Assembly (NCBI GenBank): GCA_025024175.1 | Contig: QCXZ01000064.1 | Location: 47,327,325-47,391,324, forward strand | Direction of reading: 5' to 3' | DNA length: 64,000 nucleotides | From: Rhyzopertha dominica | Taxonomy: Eukaryota; Arthropoda; Insecta; Coleoptera; Bostrichidae | In this document: in pieces, positions 18,347-49,046 of the stretch | Layout of the letters: every line of letters starts with the position of its first letter | Numbering within the stretch: the stretch's first letter is position 1 | Notes under the pieces: model-generated | Told to the model about the DNA's origin: nothing | Databases searched by the model: none | What the model saw: the letters and a program-made list of their open reading frames with translations, nothing else | Translations under genes and position numbers: made by a program

Positions 18347-18383
18347 CATCATACCATTGCTTTGGTATATAAGCAAAACCAAT

Positions 18384-18489
18384 TCTATGCCGTGCTGTCT
18401 ACACTAGACCTAAACTGCACTGATGAGCTGTAATGACAGCGAAATAGATCTATCTGCAGTTGGTTGAGGTGTAGACAGCACAGGACAGA
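18384..18489 (+). ncRNA. Hammerhead ribozyme element, copy A (all core bases present)
   Basis: Type I hammerhead. Stem I inner 7 bp: AACTGCA 18413-18419 with TGCAGTT 18455-18461. Core CTGATGA 18420-18426. Stem II: GCTGT 18427-18431 with ACAGC 18436-18440, loop AATG. GAAA 18441-18444. Stem III: ATAG 18444-18447 with CTAT 18450-18453. C17 is at 18454, so cleavage is predicted between 18454 and 18455. The terminal inverted repeats (GTGCTGTCTACAC 18392-18404 with its exact complement 18469-18481) continue stem I across an internal loop of 8 and 7 nt. Such a loop could make the tertiary contact with loop II that natural fast hammerheads use. Homology with copy B extends beyond the element to about 18373 and 18502. 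Activity is predicted, not shown. Confidence 0.9.
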
Positions 18490-18502
18490 CATGCATTTTA
18501 AG

Positions 18503-20004
18503 TAGTACAATAGTTGACCTGCGTTGACTTACCTACTACACAAAGTGTAAAAATAAAATTTGTACGGGTTTTAATTTGTGGTTTTACAGTGGCACTGTCT
18601 AGAAATATACTAGATAAAAATGATTCAACCTTGACGATGAGTTTATTTATCAAATCAGTTTTTGATAGCCTTGATTGTTTTAAAGCTAAATGTAAAAGTC
18701 CAGATTTTGACTTCATTCAAGAACGGCAGTAATATACCATTCTTTTCTAGATACATTATTTGCACTATATTTTGGAAAAATATGTATGAGGTGCACAGGG
18801 TATAACCTATTTGAGATTTTTGAAATCCACTGGTTTTCGTGACTCATGAGTCATGGCTCAAACGGGAACAGGAAAATATGTAAAGCCCCTCGCAAATTAA
18901 ATTATATTTAAATCTAATGCGCCGTGTTATTTTTAAGAGTACCTAAACAACTATCAATAATAGCGCATACCTAGTGCTTGCACTTCTAACATAAATAATG
19001 GTCAACTATAGCTCGAAGTAAATGAGAAGGCAGGGACACGTAGGCAAACACTAAACGGTAATCCATCAAACATTTGGATCAACATTTTCCGTCTAGCGAT
19101 AATGATTACAAAGGATATTAGAAGAACTAGTTTATTATTACCATCAGTTTCCTTTCAGATCATTTTCGTGCCATCCATTTACTTCTCCATTAACCTGTCA
19201 GACGTCCGTGAAAGCCGAATCGTCATATCGATCCCACCCTGGATTTATGTTTATTATGAGAAAAGTGCTTTCGGTATTTACGGATGAGTATGTTTTGAAT
19301 ACACGCCCATCGATCAGAATGTTTCCTTGTACTATAGTGGAAAATCTCATGTCTTTACAATTGCTACTACCTAATAGTACTGGAGTGGCGGTATGTAGTG
19401 CGTATGTGTATAGTGTGTATAGGTATGCTTTATACATGTATGAATACAAAACTACCATTCATAACATGCTTTGAGTAAGAAGACATTGATGTTTATACTG
19501 CATTCTTGGCATTTAAAGGAATTATTGAATGAACATTTCGATTTTGCACAACACTGATAGTAAAGTATCTGATATTTGAATGAGGATTATTGGAAGTGAA
19601 TATGTATGAAAAAATTTTTTGCTTTTACTTAATTATACTGTTTGTTATTATGAGAATGGTGAAGTAAGTATTCACTGTATTACCACAGCTTATTCAAATA
19701 CTGGCTACTTCACTCTCGGCGTTGTGCATGATATTTATCTTATGTCCATGGTCGAAATGTCACCTAACGTCTATGTTGCTGTTCATCTGTTCGGAAGGAA
19801 CTGGGGACAATGCGCAGTCTAGCATTCTCGTATGTGCGAAACCGACTTACGCTTAGTTTCATATAAACTATAGTGCTGATTGGAAATAGCTTTTCTTTTA
19901 AATTAGGACATCTAGGAAGAATAACCTACTGGTAATATAAAATAACGCATTTAAGAAATAATGTAGAAGATAATTTCTTAATCCCCTTGACATAAGATTG
20001 TTTA
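18503..20004. other. Spacer, nothing recognised
   Basis: AT-rich. Short frames at 18514-18732 (plus) and 19198-19474 (both strands) have no domain. Confidence 0.4.
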
Positions 20005-20400
20005 TCTTGCAATCTATACTACGCTGCAATGCGATCGTGTTCTGAAATGTACTAAACTACGCACCGATTCGAACGCATCATTTCAACTACCAATCTTAAC
20101 TACCGTTTCATTCTAGAAACGAGCGCTGAAACTTCACAATTATTCGTGTCCCTACATATTTCAATTTCAATAATCAGATTAAATGCGCAACATTTTAGAA
20201 CTTTATTAATAGTAAATAAAAATAATAATGTAATACATATGTATTAAAATTACGAATGTGCGTGTAAGTACAAGCTTATGATTAAGTGCATCCAAAGCGA
20301 AACAGTTCACATTGTATAATTCAAAAAGTTTTAGAATGGAAATAAGGAATCTTTAACTCCAGCTGAGCTATGGACGAATTACGCTAATTTTGCACACCTT

Positions 20401-21444
20401 ATATACAGGGTCCGCCACCTAAAACCCCCAGGCTCGTATTTTCTTTATTTTTTTTTTAGGTACAACCTTAAATTATATGTCAAATTGTAGGTCTTCTTCA
20501 ACTCTTTAAAAATAGAATATCGGGTGTCCAAATTTTTTTTGCAGATTATCATATTTTGCAAATAAAGCTAATTTTTGTAAATATTCTTTAACCTTACTCC
20601 CTATAATAAATATTGCTTTATAGTTGGATGCCGGCTTTTATTTTCTTCATTTTGTGTCTTTACCATGTATGCGTAATTTTTACTCCTTCTTAGTAAAAAA
20701 CAAGAAAAACTAGTCGCCGCCGTTTTTGTTAATAGGGTTATTCAGAATTTTTTAAGTGTTACTTTAGTAGCTTATTACGGTACAAATTAAGCCTACATAC
20801 CCATCGCTGCACACAAAACTCCAAAATTTGAAGTAACTTTTAAATAAATAAAGTACAAAGTTTGTTCTACAGAGAGAGAGGCTAGGAAACGAAACCCTGC
20901 GATGAGGCTAGAGCGTGATGTAGAAAACCAAACTAGCCTCATCGCAGGGTTTCGTTTTCTAGCCCCTCTCTCTCTGTAGAACGAACTTTGTACTTTATTT
21001 ATTAAAAAGTTACTCCAAATTTTGAGGTTTTGTGTGCAGCGATGGGTATGTAGGCATAATTTGTACCGTAATAAGCTATAACGTAACACTTAAAAAATTC
21101 TGAACAACCCTGTTAAATAAAATGGCGGCGAATAGTTTTTCTTGTTTTTCACTAAGAAGGAGTAAAAATTACGCATACATAGTAAAGACACAAATTGAAG
21201 AAAATAGAAGGCGGTATTCAACTATAAAGTAATATTTTTATACGGGGTAAGGTTAAAGAATATTTACAAAAATTAGGTTTATTTGCAAAATATGATAATT
21301 AACAAAAAAATTTTTTGATCCCCAATATTCTATTTTTAAAGAGCTTAAAAAGACCTACAATTTCATATATAACTTAAGGTTGTACCTAAAAAAAAATAAA
21401 GAAAATACGAGCCTGAGGAGTTTTAAGTGGCGGACCCTGTATAT
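20401..21444. mobile_element. 1.04-kb palindromic transposon (511-bp arms, 21-bp loop)
   Basis: The left arm 20401-20911 and right arm 20933-21444 are reverse complements at high identity, separated by only 21 bp. The ends read ATATACAGGGTCCGCCAC and its complement, and a TA repeat at each border fits a Tc1/mariner-type TA target. There is no transposase. The arms differ at scattered positions and short indels, so the two halves have been separate for some time. A related end is visible at 25314-25335. Confidence 0.9.
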
Positions 21445-21559
21445 TTAAGAACCTAACCGTTGAAACATAAAATGTGAATATGTATGTACATTTATTGGAA
21501 TTTAGGCTAGCACCTTACGAGTACATACCTACATATGTCATATTAATGCTTAAACCTGG

Positions 21560-21850
21560 CGTTCAGTTAGATTTATTTGGGCATTAATTAAAGCCAGATT
21601 TGCTCTATCACCATCATGACCGTTCTCTAATATAATTTCTTAATAATTCCTTGCAGTAGCGCTGGCTATTCTTTCAGCAAACTACTGAAGGAATGTTTCC
21701 CGAATTTCTGGAGCAATTCTTAGGTAGCTATAAGCATTAGCAAGATTTCATAACGCTTGGTATAGAACGCGCATACTAAATTGTAGTAAAGATTGGTGGT
21801 TGAAACGATGCGTTCGAATCGGTCCATACTTTACTACATTACAGAACACA
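21560..21850 (-). pseudogene. Degenerate unrecognised reading frame
   Basis: One minus-strand frame is open apart from three or four stops and has protein-like composition, including LANAYSYLRIAPEIRETFLQ, FAERIASATARNY and, further on, NGHDGDRANLALINAQINLT. I do not recognise a family. Its position inside an inverted-repeat element suggests it is part of that element's coding region. Confidence 0.35.
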
Positions 21851-21885
21851 ATCACTCCGCAACAAAGTAAGAAATGCCAATACAC

Positions 21886-23400
21886 GAAAGGGGTCATCAG
21901 GGTTTGATAGTCGTGTAACCGAATGTGATAGTGGTTGGTGAACTTTAGGGCAATAAATTACTCTGTAGCCTGATCAAAGAGGTTTGAAAGTGAGAGGCAG
22001 TACTTAGTAGTCACGTTTCTTTAATTATATGAATTCATCTATATATGAGCTCAGATTAGCTTGGGGGAGACTGATATTCCTCCCAGGTGTATTACTGTTG
22101 GATTGTTTGTGGAATGATGTACCTGGGAGGTAAGCATGGGGGAGGGGTACGGGGCTTAACATTAACATTTTTATTTAAAGAAATTTATTCTTAAAAACTT
22201 AAATAAAAAAATCTATGAATGATTTCTGATTTTCTTTGTAAATTAGGTATATTAGTAGAATAGGAAAGTGTAAACCCATAATTCCTTCATTCAAGTATTG
22301 GAACCGCTTTCGGATCGTTAACAATCCTTCTTCATTAAATTCATTAAATTAATATAATACTTAGTATATATTATATACAATATGATATAAAACTATTGGC
22401 TAGAAGGAAAAATAACGGCAATGAAGTGGGGTACATCAGGCTCATTCAATTAATCAAAATTTGGAATATTCACATTCAAAGCGTTCTAGATGAAATAATT
22501 TAGGGCGATGCTGCATCTAACCCAACTAGGTAAAAGAAAATGCCATGTTGACAAGTAGACCAAAATCACGAAATACGTGGTTTCTGCATATGACCGACTT
22601 CCTATTCAAAAGAGTATAAGTAAACCATATTTTATACACAATATTATCATAAATAATGGCGGCAAATGTGATACACCTACTCCAACAACTTCGAACCCAT
22701 GATTTAAAAATTAATTATTATAAAAATTGTTAAAATAATGTACTTTTACCAAATCGCACATCAATATGCCTCACTTAGCAGTTACGTTTACATTTTTTTA
22801 TTATCCCCACTCCCTAGTTGCTACCTCGTGTTTTTCACTTCGCTGATCCAAGCTTACAATATAACACAGAACAGAAACTGCTTATATGTATATGTAAGAT
22901 TGAAAATAGTGACGTGGACGGAAAATTGATTTGCTCGTTGAGGGTGGTTACATTACCATTCTTAATCATCTTATAAGTCTCTAGACTTCTTTGAAATCTA
23001 ACAGTCTGCCTTTCTTTTCTATGTGTAATATTTTGTAGTGATTCAAAGAGAACAAGTTACCTGTATAAATAAAATGTTTAACAAAATTTGAGTTTTCCTT
23101 TAGGAATTCGAAAGATCTAATGCGCTCGTTAAATCTAATAAAAAACTGTCCTCCGGTCTGTCTCACATATGCCGTTCCACAAATCCCACCTCACTGTAGT
23201 GGTGCCTCCTAGCCAATAGTTTTATATCATATTGTAAGTAACATAAGCTAAAGATATAATAATCTAATGTATACCATGTAGCCCTAGCTGAAGAGATTCG
23301 AAACCAATTCGATTATTTAAATAAAGAAATTGTGGATTAAGATCTTCTTATTAAACTGAACAAAAATTCCGTTTACATATCAATTTTGTGACCTATCCAG
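21886..23400. other. Spacer; small palindrome at 22075-22135
   Basis: CCTCCCAGGT at about 22081 and ACCTGGGAGG at about 22122 form a 10-bp stem with a loop of about 30. At 22299-22336, on the minus strand, TGAAGAAGGAT-TGTTAACG-ATCCGAAAGCGG resembles a Penelope-like tail or hammerhead remnant. No gene was recognised. Confidence 0.45.
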
Positions 23401-23419
23401 AGTAAAATTATTCCACATA

Positions 23420-23842
23420 ACCTCTCCCAGTCGCAATGGCCGCCTCGACCCTTGCCTGAAGCGCTCGCACGCCACCTTTAAAGCAGGGCTGTCCATTTCG
23501 GCAAATGCTACTTCGATTGCGGTACATAAAGAAGCCACATTGAGAGTGAGGACTCGTTAGTAACTCTTTTGATTACGCTCCGAACATAGTAGTCGACGTT
23601 ATCCAATAACTAGTTTTGGAGTCAATGGCTTGTGTGTACCTGTTTTCATCACCATCACAATCTACAATTACACAACATTCGTAAAAACACAAAAATTTCT
23701 TTCGTAACAACTGATGCGGCGTTATGACGTCACCTTCACTGAAGGTCACAACCATAGCCACCTTTAAGAAGGGCGCGGCCGCATCAATTTGGCAACATCG
23801 CTCACAAGGCCGATTCTGTTTAAATTGAATGGACTGATACAT
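23420..23842 (-). pseudogene. Mariner-like (DDE) transposase relic
   Basis: The minus-strand frame from 23842 contains VAMVVTFSEGDVITPHQL, matching the block after the second catalytic Asp in the insect mariner-like family (VMVxGVVSxEGDVxPPHF). After an internal deletion and a frameshift it resumes as DYYVRSVIKRVTNES (family: DYYVWGVVERxTNxx). Another shift leads to NVASLCTAIEVAFAEMDS, then VACERFRQ, the C-terminal helices. The DQDSAPxH catalytic segment is missing and several frames are broken, so it is inactive. The catalytic Asp residues are not visible in the retained pieces. The family is assigned from motif order. Confidence 0.7.
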
Positions 23843-25310
23843 AACATACTCCTTGCGCTAGTGCAGTATTTAGACCCATAACTTGGAATCTAGATTACGC
23901 TGTTACTGGCAAATGGTCGGCAGAAATTTTGAAATAATCGCTAATGAAATTTTCGAGTCAGAACCAAAACTGCGGATTGATAATAATAATAATATATATT
24001 TGCATTACAATTTACTCAATAATGAATTTACAACTTCCTACTTCGTGCTTTGAGAAAGTCTGTGAAGCACTACCAAAAGGCCAATCATTGTTTTGTCAAA
24101 TTCAGAAGATACTACACCAGCTGCTATTTATTTTGTGACATTTAACTGCAACTACCTAGACGTCTGACGAATCAGGTATATTTTATATTAGCGATCCTGT
24201 TGCATTTAAATTTGGTCGAAAGTTTAATTGCTTTTAAATGCATTAAATTTACATTAATGAAAGGCAATGATCATTGACCAGGTCCTTATTACAATTTAAT
24301 AAACTGTAGAGTGCCATATAAAATTGTTGTTGAACTTGTGCGTGATGCAGATGTGATGATGTGAATATCTGAAAAATTTGAGATTGTTTATGTCGGCAAG
24401 TACCTACAAAACAGAACGTTATTTTAAGTGTTGTATACGAACGAATCGGATTTTCTTTTTTGAGAATCAACTATATTGCTACTTACGCAATAATGGTGTA
24501 AAATGTACAATAAAATCTCTCGTGTCAATTAAATAATTTCAAGGCACGTTCAAATAAATTGTAGCCTTAGATTTAAATATAAAAAACGTTAAATACTATA
24601 TTTTTAGAAATACTCTTCCAAATATATTAATTTACAGCTTCTTTCTTGTTACGTATGCATGTCTTAACATTTCAGGAAATCTTACCAAACTGTTTGGCAT
24701 ATCAGGTTCATTTATTGTTACCTCAGAGATGATGTATCATATATTTAAACATACCAAATAAATTGTTTCAATAGAAATAATGTAAGTACATAAGATTTTT
24801 TTGTAAGGTACGTGGTCGTCGTAATGCTTATAAAATATCATTTGTCTCAGTATTTTAGTTGATTTATAAAAAAAGCAGATCTCGATGTAATAAGTAAGTC
24901 TACGGCCGCTGCCTTATTAGGGGTGACCATGATGCCACACAACGCCTGAGATCTTTCTGCCCGACTGCTGGAGTCCGGCTGGCCGGTTCTTGCTTATTAC
25001 TCTTCCTTGGCACGTTAGCTGAATCTTCTTCGGATTTCTCGGAAACATTATATACAGCAACAATATCGTACACAGTTGACTTCGCGTGCCCAAAAAACAT
25101 CTAATTATTTACGCCGAAAGCCCAGCGAGAAGACCTTCGATTATTGCGGCTCTTTAGTTGTTATTTTGTACTTAGCATTTGTTCGTAACGTCTTGATCAT
25201 TTTTAGGTTTACTATACGTGTGTGGCTTTCACACAACAAAGACAGTAATAAAGATCTATAGCGGAACAATTTAATTATACGGCGGGAAATTCAAATCTAA
25301 ATTTGTCCAG
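23843..25310. other. Spacer; unrecognised GC-richer block at 24895-25100
   Basis: A 66-codon minus-strand frame at 24900-25100 lies in GC-richer DNA, but no domain is seen. The rest is AT-rich. Confidence 0.35.
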
Positions 25311-25313
25311 ATT

Positions 25314-25340
25314 TAAGTGCCGCATCCTGTATACGAATGC
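25314..25340. repeat. Solo end of the palindromic element family
   Basis: TTTAAGTGCCGCATCCTGTA here matches TTTTAAGTGGCGGACCCTGT, the right end of the palindrome at 21421-21440, with a few changes. Only this one end is found. Confidence 0.5.
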
Positions 25341-25357
25341 CTATAATCGCTCGTAGC

Positions 25358-25606
25358 TCAGACTTCTAGGTAGCGCGATAGAGGTGACCAGTCCAGGTAA
25401 GAAGACGCGTTGTTTCCAACCTGGTGTCGCATACCTTCCAGTGAGTAATTACTTACTGCCGGCAAGGTAGTGTTCGTTTGAAACACCTTGTCAATGGAGT
25501 TCCCTTCTAGACGCACTAGCGATCCCAGACGTTTCGTTGGGGCGGCGCTCATCGGCTTGCCGGTGGATGTTGCTCCCTGAGAGTGTTTGGCTTTGCCTAC
25601 TGACAT
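25358..25606 (-). CDS. Unrecognised 82-codon ORF
   Basis: An open frame with Met start and normal amino-acid variety (TKRLGSLVRLEGNSIDKVFQ) in a GC-rich block that stands out from the flanks. I recognise no domain, signal peptide or membrane segment. It lies between a transposon end and a hammerhead element, so it may be a fragment of mobile DNA. A host exon is possible but lacks supporting splice sites. Confidence 0.25.
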   Translation of the reverse strand: MSVGKAKHSQGATSTGKPMSAAPTKRLGSLVRLEGNSIDKVFQTNTTLPAVSNYSLEGMRHQVGNNASSYLDWSPLSRYLEV

Positions 25607-25642
25607 TATGTCGTTGACCTCCTACTTATGGAGTAAAACTTC

Positions 25643-25743
25643 TGTGCTGTGTTGTCTACACTGGGACTATAGCCGAGCTGAAGAGATCTAATAGATCGAA
25701 ACGGCTGTCCTCGGATTGTTTCTAGTGTAGACAACACAGCGCA
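25643..25743 (+). ncRNA. Hammerhead ribozyme element, copy C (all core bases present)
   Basis: Type I hammerhead. Inner stem I: CCGAG 25673-25677 with CTCGG 25710-25714. Core CTGAAGA 25678-25684 (position 7 is A, a variable site). Stem II: GATCT 25685-25689 with AGATC 25693-25697, loop AAT. GAAA 25698-25701. Stem III: AC/GT around GGCT. C17 is at 25709, with cleavage predicted after it. The outer stem I is made by inverted repeats GTGTTGTCTACACT 25649-25662 and its complement 25724-25737. The internal loop strand GGGACTATAG (25663-25672) is identical to that of copy D. The stems differ in sequence from copy A but all pair. Confidence 0.9.
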
Positions 25744-25745
25744 CA

Positions 25746-26748
25746 CCTTTGTTATTTATAAATAGTTCAGACGGAGGTATTTTCGTAAATTAACAATTTC
25801 TTCATAATTAGGATGCCGTTTTTTAACAGCAGCTATTTTTTGAACAATAATACAAGTAATTGCTACTTAATATTATTTTAATTCTAAATTATTTCGATAT
25901 ATTGTGAAATAAATTCATCGATGCGCACAGATCACAATTCTCGAATAATACTGTAGATGGTAACTTTATGCGTTATTGATATTGCAACAGAACAGTGGTA
26001 TTTTCTCGGTTTTTAAAATCCAGTTACAAGATTTATTTTTTTGTCATAGCGGTTTAGTTGTACCACTTGTTAGCGGTCCGTTTTAGCCGCTGATCAATCA
26101 GCCTTATGGCGTATACGAATGGTTTAATGACTTTTGCTGATGGTTCAGGTAGGTTTTTCTTATGTTCATCATTTAAACTGATTCCACCTAATTGTTGTAT
26201 CGCATATTATTGTCAAATGTCATGTAGCTTATTGTGAAAATTAAAATGTACAAACGTAATATCGCCATATTTTTTCAGAAAAGAATAAACCTCAAAAATG
26301 TACTATTGATCCGGTACGGTATTATATTTTGTTAATTTCATCTAACCAGTGTTTTTTTTACTAAATTTTATTGTTTTAAAGTTCTAAGAGGTTCAGTATA
26401 TTAAATACTAGCTCAATGATTTAACCCTTGACCGAATTAATGTTAAACTTGACCCTTCATATTGTAGACTAGGATTAATTATTACTGGGAAGTAATTTCA
26501 AACACAACGCTTTAACGACTACGCTGACCTATAAGCGACCACTGGGCCCACACGCCATATCTTTCTAATCAAATCGGCAAATGTGAGACGGAACTTTTCA
26601 ATATGCCGACCTTAACGGGATGTAGAATATAACGTGCTCAACGGCCTTTGTTAAAGGTCATATGCTAAAGGATATGGGTTCGCATTTAACACACCTGCAG
26701 CGCGAAAATAACAGGTTATGCCCTGGTAAGCTCCATTAACTAACTCAC
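25746..26748. other. Presumed intron or flank of the Ig exon
   Basis: AT-rich; no further exon of the Ig gene was found in the downstream (lower-coordinate) direction. The following exon, which should finish the first Ig domain, was not seen in the window. Confidence 0.35.
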
Positions 26749-26881
26749 CTGTAAATGGGGTAACCGGAACCGTGATGGAACCAGAAAACCATGTAGACTT
26801 TGTCGTGGCCTGGGGGAGTCACGTTGCAGGGTAGGCTGACNCTTTTGCCCTCGACTGCTTGTACGTCTTGGGGAATCACCA
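26749..26881 (-). CDS. Sidestep-family immunoglobulin protein, one internal exon
   Basis: Minus-strand exon of 133 bp bounded by a polypyrimidine-rich acceptor (TTTGTTTACAG before 26881) and a donor (GTGAGTTAG from 26748). It begins with two bases that finish a split codon and ends with two bases (AG) that begin the next. It encodes VIPQDVQAVEGKxVSLPCNV, then TPPGHDKVYMVFWFHHGSGYPIY. This is the N-terminal half of the first V-type Ig domain of Sidestep-like proteins: the EGK-x-x-x-LPC strand with the first Ig cysteine, then the TPP-DxVYxVxWF segment with the core Trp. These are single-pass neuronal surface proteins; Drosophila Sidestep is the ligand of Beaten path and guides motor axons. One N falls in the codon after EGK. 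Which paralogue this is cannot be told. The gene would run toward lower coordinates with very large introns. Confidence 0.75.
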
Positions 26882-29600
26882 CTGTAAACAAAAGCGCATA
26901 CGTCAGTCGATGTTCGGTAGAGGAAAAGCTCACACATCATTATGTATTTATTTTATTTACTTTAATTCATCTTACATGATTAATGAATGCTAGACGTATC
27001 ATAATATTGTCATATAAAACATAAGAAAAGGGCAGATCACTCCCACTATAAAGGATGTTTCATTCCGGCGTATTTCTTCTGGTACTCCTCTTCCGTTTAA
27101 AACAAAAATTGGCTTAACTTTAACTTATCCGGGTTGTTCAGATACACAATATAAATATATTTTGAAATAGGTATGGCGCAGTTGCGGCTATATCGAAAAT
27201 ATAGAAGTTTCATCCTTTTACAGTATTTTGTATTTTTTATTCGTTGTTAATGTTCCTATATTGACTATATGGTGTTCTACCCTCTGCCGTAGATGTGATA
27301 TTCGCAATAGACAGGACGCAGTTTTATAAAAGAAATAAAGTTCTCGTAGCAATTCAGCAGCGTAGCAGCCCAGGTTGCTTTGAAAATGGGACTTTAGTCT
27401 CAGCTTACGAAGTTCAGACATAAATAATTACTTACCAAATGTGTCATGATTGAGTTCATAAAGATAAAAAAAAATAAATCAAAAAAGACCTTTCTTTAAA
27501 ATTCACCCTAATGTAAACAAGCCGCTTGTACATTTTCAACCTTTCGCCTTTCATAATTTACATATATTTACGAAAAACTAGTTTTTCTAATAAACAACTT
27601 AAACTTTTAGATCAAGGTTTAAAATGTGTTCCACAGGCATTCATTTGATGGTAGCTGATAATGAAGCAACTATAGATATCTTACACCCATAAATTAAAAT
27701 ATCTTTCATTTCAGACAAATTCATTTTTATAAGAATCTGCTAGTTGCATTTTCTCTCAAATCAACAAAAATATTATTTGCGTTATAACCTACTTGGTTAT
27801 ACAGAGCGTACGGCGGCTCGTGTGGTTGTCCGGAGATAGGGGTGGGCTCATCGTTCGAATAGATAAAAATTAGTGGCCAATTGATTGTTAAACAAAAATT
27901 GCATGCACACACTGACTAATCAATAAATCCAAAAAAACTGTATGGTAAAGTTATATATTGAAAATAAATTTGACAGATGTATAATTAATGTTGTACAAAA
28001 CGGAGTTAGAAAAAACAATCCCGATTTTTATATAGATATTCAATGTGAAAATAGCTTTAACTTGATATTTTAAACAAAAAAAGTACGATAATAGTACACT
28101 CCCAAAGTGTTTCCAATAATGCTGAATTTTGAGTTTGGCCCAATTTCGTAGTCGACATCAGCTCGGTCCTGACTTTGATTTGAGTAGAGTTCGAGTTGAG
28201 GCCTGTGTTAAGTGTGTACAGCACGCAAGCGTTAGAAATGCGAAATTTTAAGTTACAGTAAAAAAAAGATACGTATATACCTGTGTTGGTGCGCGCCCTC
28301 GTTACTGCTCTGGCTGTGGCTAATACACTTGTAATGATTTAGAGATTGTAAATTTGCCGATATACTTTGACGTTTTCAACTCAATTTGTAACAATTTAGC
28401 AAGGTGGTCAAAGAAACTTGTGAAACGCACGTAGCCACTTGTATCATTATCCAACTAGTCCCGAATCAAAATTGTCACAAAAAAGTTATAAGAAATATGT
28501 GGAGAGTTCTGTGAACAGATGGCGTGTGCTGATACTTTAAAGAATATTACTAGCGCCGGTAAAAGTGCACGCTACAGCGTTCAGATACCAACCCTGTTAT
28601 TTAAAACCATTGGTTCTAAAAGAGCAAACGAAATATTATTTTTTCCAAAAGACGACAAAGGTGATGGAGAGTTAGGACAATTTTCAGAAATATGCTAGCT
28701 CAAAAAAGCATCAAATTTTGGGAAACATGTCCAAAGAAGGAATTATATCTGCCCCCAAGTAAGGGCAAAATATGAATTAGAAATTTCAATGAAGGCCACG
28801 CCCCTCAGGTCAGGTCAGGTCATGTCTGACGTCGTACGCGTACGGTGCGTATTTTGGGTGCAGATAAACAGTGTCCGTCTATCAGTTTCCGTTTTTAAGC
28901 AAAATGGACGAGTGCAAGAAAGGATTAGATATTGTGTCGTGACAATGGGCAGGAATATACAACGTATACGACGCTCAACGAGCATTGCTGATATGGCAAA
29001 TACTAGATTAGACATGGGATATAAAAATACTAGAAAAAATACAATGCACAAATGCTTAGCTAGAGCACAAACCAAAACAACAATAGTAGCGACCGAAAAC
29101 GGCAGAACGCTGTAGATAACGGTATATTCAGTCACAAATGAATAGCACGATTGATCTTTTTCCAACTAACTGATTTTATAAATATGTTAATTATTGATTA
29201 CTTTTTTTGAAGAAGTTATTTTATTTTGTACTGATAGGCCGGGCCGTATCGGATATTTATAACAACCGTTTATTATGATTTCACATTCATGTAACTTCTC
29301 CACAGTGTAGTTAGCTTGGACAGAAATGATTACGTAAATAAAGGGTTTAATTTCTTAAGCACTGTAATATTTAAAATGGTTCAGACTGACTTCTTCTAAA
29401 TAAAGTTAAATCAACTTAAATAAGTTAACTGTACCAAATTAAATCTTTTATCTATGATTTAGTTTCGTTAATGTAACTTGCACTATGTAAATAAATTTAT
29501 TTTCCGTTTCAATAATAAAAATTTTATACCAAAGTTACATTTGGCTGAACTCTTTGTGAATCTGATTTATAAAATAGATTTTCGAAAGCAATTGTTTCTC
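26882..29600. other. Spacer or intron upstream of the Ig exon
   Basis: AT-rich, without a convincing exon. A 61-codon minus frame at 27727-27912 has a proline-rich start (DEPTPISGQPHEPPYALYNQ) and a possible donor (GTAGGT), but no good acceptor. Overlapping frames at 28789-29165 on both strands have no domain. A short GGTCA tandem lies at 28809-28821. Confidence 0.35.
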
Positions 29601-29609
29601 CCCATTCGT

Positions 29610-30180
29610 TGGCGCACTGTTATGTAGATGATGTTTTGTACCTTTCTATGTGGAACATTTACAGGCGCACTGTTTCTTACTTTTTTTAACACCCTAATTA
29701 GTATATACAAACTGGGCTTTTTATTCTGAAGTCTTGATCATTTTGGGTTAGACTTCACTAGGATAAGGTACATTCTTAAGGCGAAAAAAAAACTGAGTCA
29801 GATGCCACCTGATGTATGCCAGCGGGGGGGGGGGGGTGCCTAAATGGAGAAGGGAAGAGACTGTAAAGTCTTTATGTGATTGTATTCCAGATACTGAGGA
29901 GGTGATGGCGATTTTAGCAGTTCTGGTTGTCCAGTTCCAATTGCTTTTCTTCGCTTTCGTCCAAGCATCGCATCCGCCTACATAAAAACCAGGCGTAATC
30001 TAACTCTCTCTTTCTTCTTCGGGATTTGGTTCAGTTTGTGCGGTATTCCATATTCCTGTCCTGATGAAGCCCTTCACAAGAGTGGGCGAAACGTCGACCC
30101 TATTTCCAAAACCATCGCGGTTTAACCCTAAACAACCGAAATTTTCATTTGACTCTGGCCGCGAAAGGTTTTTTACGTTC
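29610..30180 (+). pseudogene. Penelope-like retroelement, fragment copy B with tail
   Basis: TATGTAGATGAT at 29621-29632 encodes YVDD, the reverse transcriptase catalytic box, in the context HCYVDDVLYLSMW. It is followed, with frameshifts, by FFNTLISIYKLGFLF, fitting the FxxxLNSIHxxIxFT segment of Penelope-like enzymes. The rest of the coding region is deleted. The tail at about 29940-30170 matches the tail of copy A in reverse complement, including ACCAGGCG and GGGCGAAACGTCGACC. The tail contains a hammerhead-like core: CTGATGA 30061-30067, GCCC/GGGC stem, GAAA 30088-30091, then CGTC. A 13-G run (29824-29836) interrupts it. It is a dead element. Confidence 0.6.
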
Positions 30181-34060: not shown

Positions 34061-34072
34061 GCAAAAAACAGT

Positions 34073-34178
34073 TCTATGCCGTGCGGTCTACACGCGACCT
34101 AAAATGCACTGATGAGCTGTAATGACAGCAAAATAGATCTATCTGCAGTTGGTTGAGGTGCAGACAGCACAGCATAGA
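34073..34178 (+). ncRNA. Hammerhead ribozyme element, copy B (core mutated)
   Basis: Homologous to copy A along its whole length and beyond (about 34061-34190). Core CTGATGA 34109-34115. Stem II: GCTGT 34116-34120 with ACAGC 34125-34129. Stem III: ATAG 34133-34136 with CTAT 34139-34142. C17 is at 34143. The conserved G12, the general base of the reaction, is A at 34130, so self-cleavage should be abolished or very slow. Inner stem I also has one weakened pair. The terminal repeats begin TCTATGCCGTGCGGTCTA and end with the near complement AGCATAGA. It is a decayed member of the family. Confidence 0.85.
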
Positions 34179-34190
34179 CATGCATTTTAA

Positions 34191-40500: not shown

Positions 40501-40985
40501 AGTCCATTGCAGTTGATACATTAAATACTGTTGTCAGCTGTGGCCAACATGTCGAAATAACCTCATATGTAGAAGAAGAATCAATGCACTGAAATGTTTG
40601 TTTCAAGGCGAAAGTAAAGGTATCTAACCTTCTAATTACCCCAAAACGTCACAAAATTCTATTACCTATAATGAAAAAGTGCAGATGAAAACAAGAAACG
40701 GAGCACAATAGAACTCTTGTGTTTAAAAAAAAATGAGTTATTTAGAAAGTATGCATGGTGTTGCATTAAAAAGTTGTTACCTACTACACCAAATGGGACA
40801 TTCTGCATAATGCAAAATTATTTTATAGCGCGCAGAGCTTCATTTGGTACAACTTTTACTTAAAACATCTTTCTAAAATTCTAATATAAACTGAGCTATA
40901 GTCCATTCCTGTCCTAGGCGACATCGTGTATAAACGAGAATTGTGTAATGACGCGACGCAGTTATTTGTATCAAGTGATCTAGAG
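37558..40985. other. Spacer with GC-richer patches
   Basis: GC-richer patches at 37790-38180 and 38880-38990 have no recognised genes. CTACAGGGTGTCTCACCTAAG at 38296-38316 resembles the terminus of the palindromic element family. The remainder is AT-rich. One N at 40234. Confidence 0.35.
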
Positions 40986-40989
40986 TTAA

Positions 40990-42858
40990 CCCTGGAATGC
41001 TTAGTGGGGTTATGAGTAACCCCAGGCAGTATTAGAATACTAGTTCCTTTTTTTGCGTTGTAGGTTGCAGTTTTGCGGCACTAAACATGTTCATTTGAGG
41101 TTATGTTTTAAAACACGCTTGTGTTAAGTCCTTGATCCAGTAATTGGTGAAGTGTAACTCCTAGTAAGCATAAATGATTTTATTGTTAAGACGGCTAAGA
41201 AACCAATCGGCACTAAATTTGAAGAAACCGTGTTACGTTGGTATGACGAATTTGAATCTGAGTATGATTGTAATGGTAGTGACTAAGAATTTGAGGACCA
41301 CGTATCCGAACAGTCTGATGTTGGAAGTGAGTTTGGAGTGCCGGGACGAAAATGAGGTTGCAAAGACCGCTGTTCAGAATGCAGATAAGTCTATCAAGGG
41401 AAAAAACGGATCCGCTTACTCGGAACCGGACACCCAAGAAAAATTTAGTTTTACGAATTCCTGGTCCAAAAGTTGAAGCAAAAAATATTTCCATTGAAAT
41501 GAAAGGTAAGAAATAGTTATGTTCTGATGAAATAACCAACAAGATAGTTTTGCACACCAGTTGGGAGATTAGAAGAAAAGGAAGTTACTATAGTGAAAAT
41601 TATAATTATATTTTATAATTTTTTTTATAATTATAATTATATAATTGGAATACTTGCTTTTTTTGGTCTACTTTATACATCAGGATGTAGGAAAGGTAAT
41701 CACCTTACAACGGCTGAAATGTGATCAAAATATTGTCCTGAAATATACCGCAGTATTATAAGTGAAACATGCTTCGCTTTTAGCTATCGTGTATAGAATT
41801 TGATCATAAAATCACAGAACTGTGAAAATAAAATATTCACCAATTTGTGACACATAGGAAGAACTTGAATCAAATTGTACAAATGCTACATTTAATGAGA
41901 AGCTCTTGGGTTTTCGAGGGCATTGTACTTTTAGAGCTTATGTATCATCGAAGCCAGACAGGGATTAAAAATAGTGACAGTGTGTGGTTCACGAACTTTC
42001 TATATTCCATATATTAGGAAAGAAACCAGACCACACCAAGAAGCTTTACCAAATTTTTATGTCAAGAGATTCTCAGAATGTATTCACGAAACAGGACGTA
42101 CTATTTGTATAACTATGGACGATTGGTGTACCAGTATTCCATTAGCAGACATCATGGTAAATCAGTTCAGATCACTACTTAATAACAAAAGAGAGGTTCC
42201 CCATCATTCCTTTCAAATAAAAATATATAAATGCTAAGTTCACAATTTGCTTTCGACCAAAATGAGGCATTAGTCTCGTTTGCTGCAAAAAATCCAAATG
42301 TGTGGACATCTTTGATCAAATGGTTCACACATATTCAGTCTGAGCAAAGACCAGAAGACGGTCAATGCGATTTTTTGTGGTATTCTGGTTCAAGCAGGTA
42401 TACATTCTGGAGTATGTTCCAAATGTTAAAATGTGATAGACAAAAATGCATTCGGCGACATCGGAATTCAGCTTGCAAGAGCGCACATGGATCGACGTTT
42501 AACGAAAGAAATTGTCTTCCGCTGTAAGAAATATTTTACGGACGGAGGAACAAAACATTGAAGGTACTGCACTTCCACCAAAACTTGCAAAACAAACCCT
42601 GTGTGCAATTTGCCCGAGTACTAGTGACAGGAAAACGGAAATGGCTTGTGCAAAATGTTCTAAATCTGTTTGTAATGCACATTGTGTTGGTGTGTGTGTA
42701 GAATGTAGTAAATAAATATTTTAATACATATTTTGTCTGTGCATTTTTATTATTATCGTTTATTCTTATTTTTTAATTACTTGAATTCGTTATTACTAAA
42801 AGGGGGCTACAAGTATGTAAGTAACAGTGAGAGCAACTTTTAACTTAGCTATCCGGGA
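40990..42858 (+). mobile_element. piggyBac-type DNA transposon, decayed, with TTAA duplications
   Basis: TTAA at 40986-40989 is followed by CCCTGGAATGCTTAG. At the other end GGGA is followed by TTAA at 42859-42862, and the last 15 bases are the complement of the first 15 at 10 positions. TTAA target sites with CCC/GGG-type ends are the signature of piggyBac elements. Inside lies a broken piggyBac transposase in the same orientation. The element is 1,869 bp, shorter than usual for a full copy, which fits internal deletion. Confidence 0.75.
41200..42715 (+). pseudogene. piggyBac transposase, broken
   Basis: Pieces in order: an acidic N-terminal region (YDEFESEYDCNGSD, then EDHVSEQSDVGSEFG) at about 41240-41340; LLGFRGHCTFRAYVSSKPDR at about 41905-41965; TVCGSRTFY; then ITMDDWCTSIPLADIMVNQF at about 42110-42165, which holds one of the catalytic Asp residues (family MDNWFTSIPLA); SSQFAFDQNEALVSF at 42237-42290; and the C-terminal Cys-rich domain at 42600-42715 (CAICPSTSDRK, CAKCSKSVCNAHC, CVEC), the zinc-binding ring that helps bind the ends. 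At least three frameshifts or stops and a missing central part (between about 41500 and 41900) make it inactive. Confidence 0.85.
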
Positions 42859-42862
42859 TTAA

Positions 42863-44123
42863 TGGTTTCTATAACTATGTTTATTAAATTAAAACCAAAA
42901 ACCTTGAACAGTATAAAGTAACAGTTTATAGCATTTTGCAGTATTTGCTAGATTGGGAAAAATAATATGTGAACATTTCATAACACTCACCCAATGGTGA
43001 AACGCATAATCGATTATCAAATACAGCTTATTATCATAACACGTGCTAAACGATTCGGAAATAATATTAAATTAAGCTTTCTTTGGAACGAGATTGATGT
43101 TAATATCCGCCTTTGCATGCCGGTACTTTTAATATGTTTCCAAACATCAATAGGGGGCAAAGCCCCAACGCAAGCGAATAATTGAAAGAAGAGCAAACAG
43201 TAGGGAGCGATCCGGAGATTTATGCAAATATCAACAAGTCTGGGGTTCGGGGGCATTAAAGGAAGAACTTGAAATGCTCCTCGAGAAGTTAGTGGAAACT
43301 GCTGCCAGGCGGCAGGTGTAGGTCACAAAGATGTTTTGTGCCGGCTCCCTTTTTATTGCTCAAGTTCAGGACTTCAGGCGTGTTCCCCCTTTGTTCCTTT
43401 TCATCAACTTCCACCCTTTTAGATGCTACTCCACAGGACCATTCACCAAGTTCAGCACCTTTTCGAGATGCGTGTTGTGTGCCTTCGTTCAGCATCCAGT
43501 CTAATACACTCGGGACTGCTTTTGTGCTACAGATGAATTATGTACCTGCGTGGGTAAGGCGGCTTTGGCAAACAGGAAAATCAACGATCAGAACACTGCT
43601 TCAGGTGGTCTAGGAAATGTTCGTAGTTGTCTCGCGAGTACGTCTAAAGATTTAAAGTTAGCGATAGGCTGATTAAAAAAGGATATATTTGTCAGTTTTA
43701 GGGTGCAATTATAAGTTTCATTTTTCGCTACCAGATACGAACACTCTTATTGGTTTTTAAACGCAAGCCATAGCTTATGATTAGATTCGAAAGCTTATAA
43801 TACATATCAACATACACACAATGCTTTCAGCAAATATTTATTGCTTCTTGATCGCATAGTAGCAATCTACTTTTAAACAAAAAGGTTCCTCGAACCTTGT
43901 TACCACCTCCAAGGGATCAAAGCATAATAAAAGGGCCGAAGGAAAGTAGTAAGTACGCTTTTTTATTTATTTTCACGTGGGCCAAAATCTATTTTCTTCT
44001 GATTGATGTCTAGCCCAGGCGCGAGAGACATAAAAAGGGAACAGATGAAATAATTGCTTACAAGCTGGAATTTAGCTTAAATTCTTCCCAATGTGGTAAA
44101 TAATAATCATTATACATAAAATC
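42863..44123. other. Spacer with a GC-richer block at 43140-43620
   Basis: The block has GGAGATTTATGCAAATATCA (an octamer site) and CAGGTG E-boxes, and frames open on both strands without a recognisable protein. It could be regulatory. The flanks are AT-rich. Confidence 0.3.
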
Positions 44124-45139
44124 AAAACATCGAGATTTTCGGCAATATATTGTTCAAACAACTTGTTTAATACATTTTAGTCTTTCGCAAATATCTCGGA
44201 CACTACAAGCCTAATCTAAAGATGATAGCGAGCAATTTTAGTTGTTACTAAATTTATAACAAAAAGAGTCTCTGTAATTCTTAATTTCCATCCCTTGACG
44301 AGTTATAAACATAAAATGTTACCCCTCTGTGTGTGCTGAGTGTAAAATGTGAATGGCTAACAAGCAATAAATTGCACATTGCCGAGGAAGGAAATATTAA
44401 GGAAATGATTTCATGACAACAAATTAGAAAACTGTCATGACCAACGGGTTTATTATTTATAAATTTACATCTAAGACCTTGCTCTTCCTTCTGGCTGAAG
44501 AAAGGTTGAAATCAGCTTCCTCGCCAAGTCATCTTCAGTATTGAAGGTCTCTTCATCTTCATCTAATACTTCGTCTATTTCCGCAAATTTCCCATACACA
44601 CACTCGTTCATATCTTCTGCCAAAATAATTTCANTCGAAATGATAATTAGTTCAAAATGGAAAACAATAAAGGCCCACTTGACGACAATAACTTATTATT
44701 ATCAATTGTTCTGTGGTGCTAGCTGCATTGTAGGTACTCGTAGTAAACATTCGGGTATTTATGCCCAACCTCAATTTCGTGGCAATGGATTCCCCAGCCA
44801 TCTTTGTACTTGGTGGTTAACTCTAAAGCAGTGTTGTCTGCGGTATACTGTCAAACAGAATTACGAATTATATATACACCAAATATTCTGCAGCATAGTG
44901 CAGTTTTGTGACAGCAAGAACGGATGAATTACTTTTCTTTGTTTATAACTCTGCAAATAAAGGGTGTGGGAAGAGGGGGGCGGGACTATACACATCTTTT
45001 GGGTCTCAAATTTTATAACAACTAAAATTACCATTTACCATTTTTGCGATTAGACCTGTAATTTCTGAGATATTCGCGAAAAACTAAAATTTGTTTACAC
45101 AAACTGTTTGAAAATGTGTTGCCGGAGCTCTAGATGTTT
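44124..45139. mobile_element. 1.0-kb inverted-repeat element
   Basis: The left arm 44124-44310 and right arm 44941-45139 are diverged reverse complements; shared words include TTTTAGT-TTTCGC-AATATCTC, AATTTTAGTTGTTA and GAGTTATAAAC. There is no transposase inside. The 128-codon frame at 44541-44927 is in the core but has no known domain. It is a non-autonomous DNA element of unidentified superfamily. One N at 44635. Confidence 0.65.
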
Positions 45140-46129
45140 CGATTTTATATTTATATATACAAATGTACATAACTATTATCAACCTCTTGGCATAAAACAT
45201 ATTTCAGCTTATACGCAATCATTTCATCTATTAGGTCTCTAGCGCCTGGTCCAGTTAAAAATAAGGGAAAAGGAACAGCTTTACCAATATTTTGCTAATT
45301 TTTGCATCGCACAATAACAAATTTTAGTCTGGCAGCTAGCAAATATCATCTTGACAGGACTTCCGTGAAGCAATTTTTCACGATTTACTTTTATGGAACC
45401 ATTCGGTTGGATTTATGTCTCTTCCAGTAATATGCCTATCACCTTGTAACTTCAATTATCGTTAATTATCTGCTTACATACTTGTGACGTCAGCAGGCGT
45501 TTTCGAGTAAGCATTTTCAGACTTAAATTGAATCTGCCGTAAGTTCAAAGCAAGTTATTTAAATTCAAAAAGTTTATGCAGCACCATCCTTGGAGTATAA
45601 AAGACATATTTCCAGTTGCATCTACTTTCAAGCAGGAATGCCAGTAGCTCTTTTGCTTAAAGAATATGCTTCAGTGGTACTACACGAAACACAATAAGAT
45701 ATAGCGAACCATTCAGTAAAACAGACACGATATAAAAACAAGGAATACATACAAACATCCAAGCGCCAAAAAGGATACCTAATACCTAGATAATAAAATT
45801 AACATACCACTCGTTGCGGTGAGAGAAAATCTTCATGACAACGACATTTAAAAGAATATATAAGAAATCAGAAAAAAACAGTAAGAAGTAACACTTCAAC
45901 AGACAGAGAAATAAAATACAAAAGGGACCTGAAGTGTCGGCGTCATTTCAGTAGCAGCCATTTTAATAGTAAATAGGTATATCGTACTATAAGTACTCGT
46001 GTGTACAGTCTAATTTTCAAAACCGACATAGTATAACTGAAAAGGACCAATTTCAATATTCTGTGGTAGTATGCAAACAATATATTGTATGTCAAAGTTT
46101 AAGCGTTCGTGGCCAGCGACAGATTGCAA
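45140..46129. other. Spacer, nothing recognised
   Basis: AT-rich. A perfect TGACGTCA lies at 45485-45492. Confidence 0.4.
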
Positions 46130-46570
46130 TTTTAGTGTATTTGGCATAGTTTAGAAAATGGCGTCGACGATTAGTCCGCTCTCATAAGGAACATCTCCTG
46201 AGCAGGAATATAGAATATGGCAGATCTTAACGGGAGAAACACGTCCAAGCTGAACTAAATCCTAAGGATAAAATGGAACTGCGCCTGGTATAATGCAGCG
46301 GATGGGGATACTTGGAGGGAGAGACTTTAAAGGTAGGGTTACCTACCTATCGCATGATAGGATTCCAGATATTGGAAGGTCGTATCCATCCTCGCAGTTA
46401 AGAATATTAGGGTATTTACAGATTTCTATAGCTTCACGGAATTTGCGGGTACTGCATTTTTTGTGGCATAATATTCCTGTCCGGAATATGGCCTTTCTAA
46501 GACGGCCAAATTGTCGACCCTATTTCCTAAACTGACGCAGTCGAGAGATTTGAAGCCTGTCTCACCAAGT
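46130..46570 (-). pseudogene. Penelope-like retroelement, fragment copy C
   Basis: On the minus strand (about 46330-46455) the frame reads KFREAIEICKYPNILNCEDG and YDLP, the C-terminal end of the Penelope GIY-YIG endonuclease. It continues toward lower coordinates into the element tail at 46130-46260, with ATTCCTG and TCGTCGACGCC. At 46470-46560 a second copy of the tail lies in the plus orientation (TTCCTGTCC to TTGTCGACCCTATTTCC), as at the truncated end of copy A. The hammerhead-like core in both tails is decayed. Confidence 0.65.
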
Positions 46571-47559
46571 AGCATCGCTCATGATTGAAGAATGACGTGA
46601 GTAATTAGATACGTATGTGCTCAGTGAGGCGCCGCAGCAAATAAGGCTGAAAACGATCTATAAGGGTAGCTTTCTGAATAGCAATATTAAGCATATGCCA
46701 TGTTGTCAGCGTGAGAACAATCTGTAGCCCTACACTGCAAGGTGGGCTAGAGTCCAGATTACAGATTCCTCACAGAGGCGGGTGGGTTGCGCCGCTAATT
46801 GCCAATATTTGTCCACATTATTATTCTAGCTTACTTTATTTCAGTAGTGCTAGCACAGGACATATCTATTAAACCTATATTTCCGTCACATTAGGTTTTA
46901 CGGATATTTAATAGATCCAAGGTAATTATCTGAATAACGGTAAGAATGCAATCCTGATTTGTAATTACTAAAATTTACATAAACATCTATTCCAAGTAAT
47001 GTAAGCAGCCGGAGCACAAGAAAGAGATATTTGTACCATTAGACAAAATATTGACCAACCTTCTCTGACCTGGTCCAAAATAAATAATACGGATGGCTCT
47101 GCTTGNATTGAAGCAAGCATAGCAGCTATAAACTACTAGTGTTTCAAGAACTTTGTGTTTAGTCTAGTCTACTAAGCGCAGTAAACAGCACAATAAATAG
47201 CTTATGCTTTTCTAGAGATATTTTTGTGNTTACTAATNGTTTCTNGAAAGGACTGCATTTTTTTTTGTTTTTCAAACATGCATTTTACAGCTATCTAACT
47301 TAGGTAAGTGATATATAGGACTTGGTTCTCCATACTCATCTTGGTCGCAATCCAAATACATATATGTATCTACTTATAACGTAACACTATTACTTTCAAA
47401 GGATGGTGCTATACTAGGTGAGAATTTACATAATTTNGTATATGTAACGGCACACAGCTTATTAGCATAATATCTCTATCGTAATTCCATTTANGCTCGC
47501 TACAGCCTACACAANTACTCCAATTCCACAGGCTCCTCCGTCATCCCTTATCCGTTCCA
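46571..47559. other. Spacer with clustered ambiguous bases
   Basis: AT-rich. Single Ns at 47106, 47229, 47238, 47245, 47437, 47494 and 47515 suggest low-quality or polymorphic assembly. Confidence 0.5.
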
Positions 47560-47990
47560 CCAGTTCAGCAGCTGAAATGAGGCTTAACTAAACTATTCTC
47601 CTTCCTTTTTTACCTCCTAGTCTGAAACTTTCCGCTTAATAGCAGCCATAATTACAATTCTTAATTAAAATGAGACTGCACCCGTATAATACTGCTACGT
47701 GCATAATCTTTGCGCGGATAATGCTCTTAAGCGATGAAAACTCCTAGTAACGGTCGCCGTAACGAGAGGGATGGCGACAATCTCGTGCAGCAAAAGCGAC
47801 CCCGCGAGAACAGATTCCTCAAGTCGTAACTTTGCATTAGGTTTAGCGTCGACGAGGGGTACGCTATGCATCTGCTGTCATAACTCGCTCGGGTGCTACT
47901 GCGGCTGGATTTTATTCCAAAGGACGAATTATCGTTTGCCGGATAGTTTGTTATGACTAATTTTTAGAAGGTGCATCTTTTTAAGTGGCC
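47560..47990. promoter_or_regulatory. Candidate conserved non-coding block
   Basis: Contains GCAGCCATAATTACAATTC followed by TTAATTAAAATGAG, then GATAATGCTC, CTTTGCATTAGG and CGAATTATCG within GC-richer DNA. A 61-codon plus frame has no domain. It resembles homeodomain-bound enhancer sequence, by inference only. Confidence 0.35.
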
Positions 47991-48642
47991 GCTTGAGATT
48001 AAAGAGCAATGCTATATACTGTTTCAGTTCCATAATGAGCGATATGTGAAACACTGCTATACAGGGTGATTATTTACAGTACATTTTAAGTGACTTAGAA
48101 CACAGGAGAATTTTATATAAAAAACAAGGAAACTTTGCGCGCGGGGGGGGGGGCAACCTTTGATATCTTCCATAAAATGCACTTAGTCAGCGGGGTACGC
48201 ATTCCTTCAAGAATTTTAAGTGGTACCATCCATCTTATGATACACGATTTGAAAGCTTATTTCACAAGAAGTCTCGCAGTTTGTAATGGGATTGTAGCTA
48301 TTGACAGCAAGTTGTTATTATAACATATGTGCAACTTTGCCTGGACCTAATTGAAAATTAATTTGTAATGTTTTAGTGTCTTATATTTATCTTTAAAGGT
48401 TTTCTGCAAAATTCAAATATTGTGTGATTCGTTACCACGTCTAGTGACGCATTCCGCTATTGCCCCGATGCGCCAGATGCTGTGCTGCATGTTTGACGCC
48501 TTCGCATTTGTCTAGTTTGGCAAGATCGTTCGATTTCTCGCAAATATTATCCTGCTGCGGGGATAAATTGAATTCTATTTGCTATATATCCACTACAAGT
48601 TAATATAATAATTTAATATATTTTAATAATAACATAATTACG
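47991..48642. other. Spacer with poly-G tract
   Basis: TATACAGGGTGATTATTTAC at 48060 resembles a mariner-type element end. An 11-G run lies at 48143-48153. The rest is AT-rich. Confidence 0.4.
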
Positions 48643-48746
48643 TCTATGCCATGTCGCCTGCGTCAAAACAACCTGTGAACAGCTGTTTCAGCTTATAGAG
48701 TCTCCTCGGCACAGCTATAGTCCCAACGCAGACAACACGGCATATA
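48643..48746 (-). ncRNA. Hammerhead ribozyme element, copy D (partly decayed)
   Basis: Minus-strand type I hammerhead. Inner stem I: CTGTG (48714-48710) with CACAG (48677-48673). Core CCGAGGA (48709-48703) has C for the conserved U4. Stem II, starting at 48702, has two mismatches and one wobble. GAA(A) is at 48689-48686. Stem III is ACA/TGT around GC. Position 17 is T at 48678. The terminal repeats TCTATGCCATGTCGCCTGCG and their near complement ending GGCATA extend stem I. The internal loop strand GGGACTATAG equals that of copy C. Probably weak or inactive. Confidence 0.75.
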
Positions 48747-48956
48747 TCTGGCTTCCCTTATATATGCCAAAGTAGGCGATGTGTATGCGAGAATTACAGT
48801 GTTGATGACACCATGCCATCTAGTGGCAATACGATATCATCCACTCGTCTCTGTAGAGAACTAATCTGAACGGCAGCCCACTATGTTGTGAGAGTTTAAA
48901 AGCCGGCAGACGTTCCCAACGAAAATTTCTGCAAAGAATGCAGTTCTCAAGCATAG

Positions 48957-49046
48957 TAATAACAACCCGTGGACACCTGTTTCGGCTTATAAAGCCTCCT
49001 CAGCACAGATATAGTACCAACGCAGACAACAGGGCTCACGGCATAG
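48957..49046 (-). ncRNA. Hammerhead ribozyme element, copy E (all core bases present)
   Basis: Minus-strand type I hammerhead. Inner stem I: CTGTG (49008-49004) with CACGG (48971-48967), including one G-U pair. Core CTGAGGA (49003-48997; position 7 is G, a variable site). Stem II: GGCTT (48996-48992) with AAGCC (48988-48984), loop TAT. GAAA 48983-48980. Stem III: ACA with TGT around GG. C17 is at 48972, with cleavage predicted between 48972 and 48971. The 5' terminal repeat is present (GTTGTCTGCG), but its partner on the 3' side is missing, so the outer part of stem I is lost. The core is the best on this strand. Confidence 0.85.

Follow-up and report, generated by a model that had tools for sequence, protein, structure and literature searches.

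Within a 64,000-nucleotide stretch of the Rhyzopertha dominica genome (contig QCXZ01000064.1, positions 47,327,325 to 47,391,324 of the forward strand; hereafter, the window), five hammerhead hairpins mark members of a noncoding retrozyme family of at least hundreds of copies, whose insertions are frequently built head-to-head. According to our interpretation, to which we assign a probability of roughly three in four, these elements are non-autonomous metazoan retrozymes of the non-LTR (non-long-terminal-repeat) type that are moved by the machinery of Penelope-like elements (PLEs), with each of the two target strands priming cDNA at a fixed position of its own on the retrozyme RNA. Type I hammerhead retrozymes are already known; the unusual part is the presence of two fixed, unequal insertion ends in a head-to-head arrangement. 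The family is young, and both putative start sites can be read at its ends; hence, the mover of retrozymes and the origin of the inverted arm of Penelope elements both become testable in one genome, with the RNA positions to be assayed indicated.

Anatomy of the insertions

About half of the examined copies, in three related monomer families (A, B and DE), follow a common layout, which consists of a target site duplication (TSD), an inverted copy that departs from a fixed site of the monomer, a variable junction, often with microhomology, a direct copy that stops at a second fixed site, and the second TSD. Copy A of the window, an insertion of 434 bp, comprises an inverted arm, an 18-bp gap and a direct arm. 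The insertions of the window and their parts are the following:

18066..18499, plus strand: copy A, family A insertion with both fixed ends (BLAST: inverted 199-111, direct 26-353)
18066..18154, minus strand: inverted arm of copy A, bounded on the outside by the fixed left terminus at monomer position 199
18054..18066: left copy of the TSD AAGTAGTACAATA, an exact 13-bp repeat, the last base of which is common with the element end
18500..18512: right copy of the TSD AAGTAGTACAATA, an exact 13-bp repeat
25455..25759, plus strand: copy B, family B, direct-only and 5'-truncated (positions 42-346 of the 346-bp monomer)
34064..34188, plus strand: copy C, family A, direct-only and truncated (monomer positions ~229-353)
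48634..49308, minus strand: copies D and E, a single family DE insertion (inverted 178-24, direct 96-295, direct 1-328) with an imperfect AT-rich TSD at about 49309-49331 / 48613-48628

An earlier, sequence-only reading of the window had described the hairpins as a dispersed family of ~105-bp elements with terminal inverted repeats. The dispersal is borne out; the 105-bp unit does not hold as the element, since ends and TSDs lie outside of it. That these are DNA elements resembling miniature inverted-repeat transposable elements (MITEs), the terminal inverted repeats of which happen to be stem I, has in its favour that matching inverted repeats do flank the hairpin; however, the TSDs abut the larger insertions and not the 105-bp ends, inspection of the flanks revealed no TSD at the hairpin ends of copies B and C, and the presence of tandem units, 5' truncation and inversion points to a retroelement. 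The MITE explanation is thus contradicted and extremely improbable, and the repeats are to be seen as stem I of the hairpin.

Genome-wide, loci (L-numbers) represent the best matches to the queries and not a random sample. The search with copy A listed 44 matches (40 places scored), comprising 30 loci, ten other main places and four partial matches lying inside these; apart from the window itself, they are 96-98% identical. Family A counts omit L038, a second entry for the L037 locus, and L009 (copy A of the window), while L047, which has the flanks of L046, is left out of the flank, junction and unit comparisons and retained in the fixed-end and TSD counts. Both ends are fixed in 22 of 43 family A clusters, with the inverted copy starting at 196-202 and the direct copy ending at 351-353; the others are direct-only with the right end (nine), have another inverted start together with the right end (six), or are without the right end (six). 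The left-type end occurs alone in L012 and L029. Two split pairs among the 43 clusters, in L021 and L023, are each rejoined by 13-base matches of the outer flanks into one insertion with both ends. The L021 insertion (1944-2256) is interrupted by other sequence exactly at position 199, with positions 166-199 present on both sides; a nested insertion, for which the fixed left site was the target, is one possibility. Arms can comprise several monomers (e.g., L026: inverted 199-1, 353-1 and 353-207, direct 96-353), which implies that the template was tandem or circular, or that template jumps took place.

The other families agree with this picture. In an unselected count of 40 DE clusters, both ends are at their fixed sites in 21, while 13 are direct-only, three have another inverted start and three are without the right end. 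The fixed left end was found in 19/21 of a selected DE sample, for which 20 of the 40 clusters were fetched, 18 of them chosen for showing both ends; if a narrower position range and a single-unit reference are used, only nine of these 21 count as both-ended. In family B, all three fetched relatives have a left end at 192-202 and a right end at 345-346.

TSDs, mostly 8-15 bp long, reach a score of at least 8 in 19 of the 22 both-ended family A copies, compared to 2 of 423 swapped-flank pairs. The flanks are AT-rich (A 0.33, T 0.34); the first base on the right is A in 36/37 and the last base on the left is T in 18/22 cases. Because the monomer continues with AATG past its right end, the A/AA preference fits short primer-template pairing. 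According to the circular fold predicted for family A, a hairpin loop just downstream of the hammerhead contains the right start, and an unpaired linker the left one; for DE, the right start is predicted in a loop as well, with the left start being ambiguous.

The junctions between the arms overlap by at least 3 bases in 11 of 22 cases, where 5.7% would be expected (binomial 9e-9). These junctions also bear on the possibility that the inverted arm arose through self-priming or fold-back of one cDNA instead of second-strand priming. Near-palindromic stretches exist in copy A and in DE, and fold-back has been proposed for PLEs, where an antisense-template idea was offered for their palindromes (PMC3846280; here and below, published sources are drawn on in part). 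Fold-back would, however, mirror the arms at the junction, while most junctions here join unrelated monomer positions, and it would not, on its own, hold the inverted arm's outer start at the constant position that is seen. We consider this route unlikely.

Penelope-like elements in the same genome

Published PLEs possess direct pseudo-LTRs (pLTRs) plus an inverted pLTR, a TSD and a one-sided tail (PMC3846280), and a PLE protein is reported to cut and extend both target strands, initiating inside its RNA (PMC11167929).

PLE-type fragments are present in R. dominica. A GIY-YIG fragment above the Pfam cut-off is contained in L056 (8373-9068). The last 103 amino acids of a frame in L016 (525-1058) match GIY-YIG weakly (E 0.0036, under the cut-off); the full frame of 178 amino acids gave no Pfam match at E 0.01, a matching solved structure was not obtained, and we take L016 to be Penelope-type. 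Upstream extension of this locus (L082) did not reveal a longer frame among the three forward ones, and neither strand carries a [YFMV]xDD box, for which reason L016 is taken as a 5'-truncated PLE end. L030 contains a GIY-YIG fragment by similarity to L016; the Pfam match of its region 1990-2880 is laminin G and not a reverse transcriptase, and a YVDD stretch in L030 is presumably of reverse-transcriptase type. The window itself contributes a remnant:

17003..17350, minus strand: Penelope-like C-terminus remnant, GIY-YIG-like, with a stop (tblastn to L016, 24% over 133 amino acids, E 1.7e-8)

A repeat downstream of the L016 fragment recurs in four other loci (L001, L006, L017 and L033). In L006 and L001, it is arranged as inverted and direct arms with TSDs of 13 and 14 bp, the end of the inverted arm lying ~29 bases beyond that of the direct arm. 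This is similar to what has been published for PLEs, in which the tail is optional (PMC3846280).

These insertions are relevant for deciding whether a long interspersed nuclear element (LINE) could mobilise the retrozymes by target-primed reverse transcription and ordinary twin priming, with no PLE being involved. Long variable TSDs, 5' truncation and junction microhomology are signs of twin priming too, and an RVT_1 fragment is present in L050. In L1 twin priming, however, the second cDNA begins at varied internal places, while here most of the inverted copies, in all three families, have their second end at a single site; furthermore, the PLE-type insertions of the same genome show a similar two-ended layout. 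A LINE is, on balance, an improbable mover, though slightly less so than fold-back.

Proposed insertion route

Retrozyme insertions look like PLE products because of the PLE-type fragments and head-to-head PLE insertions found here, together with the published PLE biochemistry and layout. In the route we favour, transcripts of tandem units of ~330-350 bp would be cut by their own type I hammerhead, and the resulting monomers, possibly circularised by the host tRNA ligase, would serve as template for a Penelope-like reverse transcriptase/GIY-YIG endonuclease. From a staggered double-strand cut, two 3' ends would result, each of which would prime cDNA on the retrozyme RNA, and the two same-sense cDNAs, with fixed starts, one per side, would meet at a variable point. 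Retrozyme insertion probably works like PLE insertion; the retrozyme itself is not a PLE. The link to PLEs is an argument from shared scars, the reaction itself being a proposed one.

More tentatively, and at somewhat under even odds, we propose that animal retrozyme RNA has two dedicated start sites for reverse transcription, one per strand of the staggered PLE cut, and that double priming is the normal route, which would also explain the inverted pLTR and the one-sided tail of Penelope.

A number of observations weigh against PLE-driven double priming. About half of the clusters are without both fixed ends, and right-end counts are inflated, given that the queries contain the right end. TSDs are poorly kept in DE (3/9 with a score of at least 8 versus 0/153 swapped pairs, and none at 10 or above), and 6 of the 22 family A junctions carry 4-18 extra bases with no overlap. 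The clean two-armed layout is seen in only two of the five PLE-repeat loci: L033 holds a direct copy that stops at the further, tail-bearing end, L016 extends to the same point or beyond, and L017 is decayed. A PLE with intact reverse transcriptase and endonuclease was not encountered among the loci examined, and comparison by eye of PLE ends and retrozyme ends revealed no clear common sequence. Transcription, cleavage, circularity and the role of a PLE are all inferred from DNA. As regards one circle being copied repeatedly, units were compared inside single arms, from arm to arm and from insertion to insertion: units of the same arm are as divergent as units of different insertions (median 3.2% in both cases), and discordance for shared variants is 16/156 within an arm versus 3621/23400 for different insertions, which does not support such copying.

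The hammerhead ribozyme

The hairpins of the window, all five of which read as the sequence-only reading had claimed, are:

18384..18489, plus strand: hammerhead hairpin A, core from 18420, predicted cleavage after C17 at 18454
25643..25743, plus strand: hammerhead hairpin B, predicted cleavage after 25709
34073..34178, plus strand: hammerhead hairpin C, one core change
48643..48746, minus strand: hammerhead hairpin D, core and stem II decayed
48957..49046, minus strand: hammerhead E, lacking 3' stem I because of the tandem junction 48960/48961; predicted cleavage after 48972

A type I descriptor (CTGANGA, stem II, GAA, stem III closed by A15.1-U16.1, H17 and four paired stem I bases) matched the window with a perfect core in copy A (C17 at 18454), copy B (25709) and copy E (48972), which reproduces both the three complete cores and the three cleavage positions given earlier. 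Copy C matched with one core mismatch (GAAA to AAAA), and copy D, with its decayed core and stem II, was missed. As a control, 30 equally sized first-order Markov sequences built from the window were searched on both strands, with no perfect match and three matches with at most one mismatch. Folding by minimum free energy renders each of A-D as one long hairpin and E without the outer stem; the continuity of stem I with the long inverted repeats was correctly seen. Copy E does keep only one repeat, because it is joined in tandem to D within a single insertion. Copies A, B and E are of type I hammerhead architecture with an open stem I, for which self-cleavage is predicted.

In the covariance-model search that had been suggested as a check, none of the five hairpins reached the Rfam gathering score. 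Closest to a cut-off was copy B (Hammerhead_1, 30.1 of 34 bits, E 0.0021), followed by sub-threshold matches for copies A (HH9, 29.0 bits, cut-off 52, E 0.0037), E (Hammerhead_3, E 0.58) and C (HH9, E 0.69), and no Rfam match, even below threshold, was returned for copy D.

Further evidence comes from 12 hairpins of the three families, aligned with MAFFT, where the misplaced stem II gap of A and C was moved by hand. Pairing is retained in 378 of 405 cells (93%), and 13 of 34 stem pairs show double-sided changes, with neither value being reached in any of 500 shuffles; slid-structure controls gave 23-44% paired. Core bases are mostly kept across this set while stem bases vary. The majority sequences of families A and DE have an intact hammerhead core, and CTGANGA...GAAA is intact in 51/61 family A units and 23/35 DE units. 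What speaks against the hammerhead finding, by a refuting condition named in the earlier reading, is that core bases stand out little from the remaining positions in their conservation within families (0.984 versus 0.982 in 61 family A units; 0.946 versus 0.914 in 35 DE units). Young neutral copies would give the same outcome, for which reason we draw no conclusion on the ribozyme from this comparison; individual copies do look neutral, given that their core is hardly protected.

Both A (AUA-GAUC-UAU) and DE (AC-AGCU-GU) have a short stem III of palindromic sequence; from its form, dimeric ribozymes may be possible, as have been described for amphibian retrozymes (PMC7229834).

Monomer families

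The 105-bp hairpin constitutes the ribozyme end of monomers of 353 bp (A), 328 bp (DE) and 346 bp (B). A tandem arrangement is seen, with a spacing of ~353 bp in family A at several loci; in this family, tandem monomers take the place of LTRs. A pattern search of the 479-Mb genome for the 45-base catalytic domain of family A returned 580 exact copies, compared to 0 for the reversed control. Family A is star-like, with units being 1.8% away from the majority sequence. The mapped insertions are made up of monomer sequence, with no coding region for reverse transcriptase and GIY-YIG inside the element; there are no long open frames, the longest stop-free frames of tandem-read monomers being 99, 74 and 71 amino acids. 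The monomer GC content is 0.445-0.486, i.e., below 50%, and the predicted circle of family A is highly paired (z -4.0, 60 shuffles). The alignment of A and DE monomers takes in the hammerhead, the TATATAAG block and the terminal regions at either end; the families, therefore, look related. Decayed DE-family pieces are also found in L056 (4928-5133) and in the window (46686-46725).

Upstream of the hairpin of copy A lies a conserved block:

18366..18373, plus strand: TATATAAG, kept in A and DE, candidate promoter

A U6-type promoter of RNA polymerase III, in which TTAAATTCT...TATATAAG had been guessed to be proximal sequence element (PSE) and TATA box for a 105-nt transcript, was rejected: the one good U6 gene (L079, out of three matches in total) has an upstream region without PSE likeness, as judged by eye. 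Similarly, a fixed RNA 5' end is not supported, as direct-arm starts at 229-239 recur only in copy C, L011, L025 and L027.

Relation to known systems

The family had first been regarded as not belonging to a standard class, which has to be corrected, because the monomers conform to the described class of metazoan non-LTR retrozymes (PMC7229834). They share with these the type I hammerhead with a short stem III, tandem units of ~170-400 nt, a GC content below 50%, TSDs of more than 4 bp, highly paired predicted circles and dispersal in animal genomes; a long stem I in a highly paired monomer fits such circles and is, in this respect, ordinary. Different from the retrozymes of PMC7229834, about half of the copies here are head-to-head with two fixed unequal ends. 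The main text of that paper, exclusive of its supplement, contains none of the words “inverted”, “head-to-head” and “twin”; no inverted retrozyme insertion was found in the consulted portions of PMC11722881, PMC7761336 and PMC8969392, and no text joining retrozymes to twin priming was found in the open-access literature.

With PLEs (PMC3846280, PMC11167929), the retrozymes have in common head-to-head inverted and direct copies, tandem copies, a tail-lengthened end, a TSD, AT-rich targets and a hammerhead motif, although the hammerheads of PLEs are described as minimal variants (PMC7761336). The retrozymes differ by being without a coding region and by the separation of the two ends on the monomer, which is ~199 bases compared to 29 in the PLEs of this genome or 31 in PMC3846280. 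Plant LTR retrozymes also have a hammerhead, are non-autonomous and have circular RNA (PMC4918200), circularity being a prediction for the present family; they differ in their type III hammerhead, LTRs and a 4-bp TSD (PMC7229834, PMC7761336).

Mobilisation of retrozymes by PLEs has been proposed on the basis of shared features and co-occurrence (PMC7229834), and the enzyme that moves animal retrozymes is given as a hypothesis only (PMC7229834, PMC7761336, PMC8969392). The origin of the inverted Penelope arm was left open (PMC3846280).

Additional observations

A second hammerhead set (G000, L001-L008 and L049-L052 near position 1501), mostly of the form CTGANGAGTCC...GGACGAAAC, accounts for 25 matches to RF00163 in the genome, of which 22 exceed the cut-off, with a common region of roughly 40-120 bp.

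In the window, a dispersed repeat (49306-49680 / 3934-4320, 73% identity, inverted) starts at most 3 bp from the end of the DE insertion. The DE monomer (in the window, 48784-48922) contains GCCACTAGATGGCAT, which we assume to resemble the CTCF consensus. Two hairpins at 10905-10994 (minus strand) and 20886-20958 (plus strand) have matches to miRNA families far under the cut-off and are probably fold-back repeats. Finally, 57711-62948 on the minus strand is occupied by open reading frames of a BEL/Pao retrotransposon (Peptidase_A17, DUF1759, DUF5641 and Integrase_H2C2).

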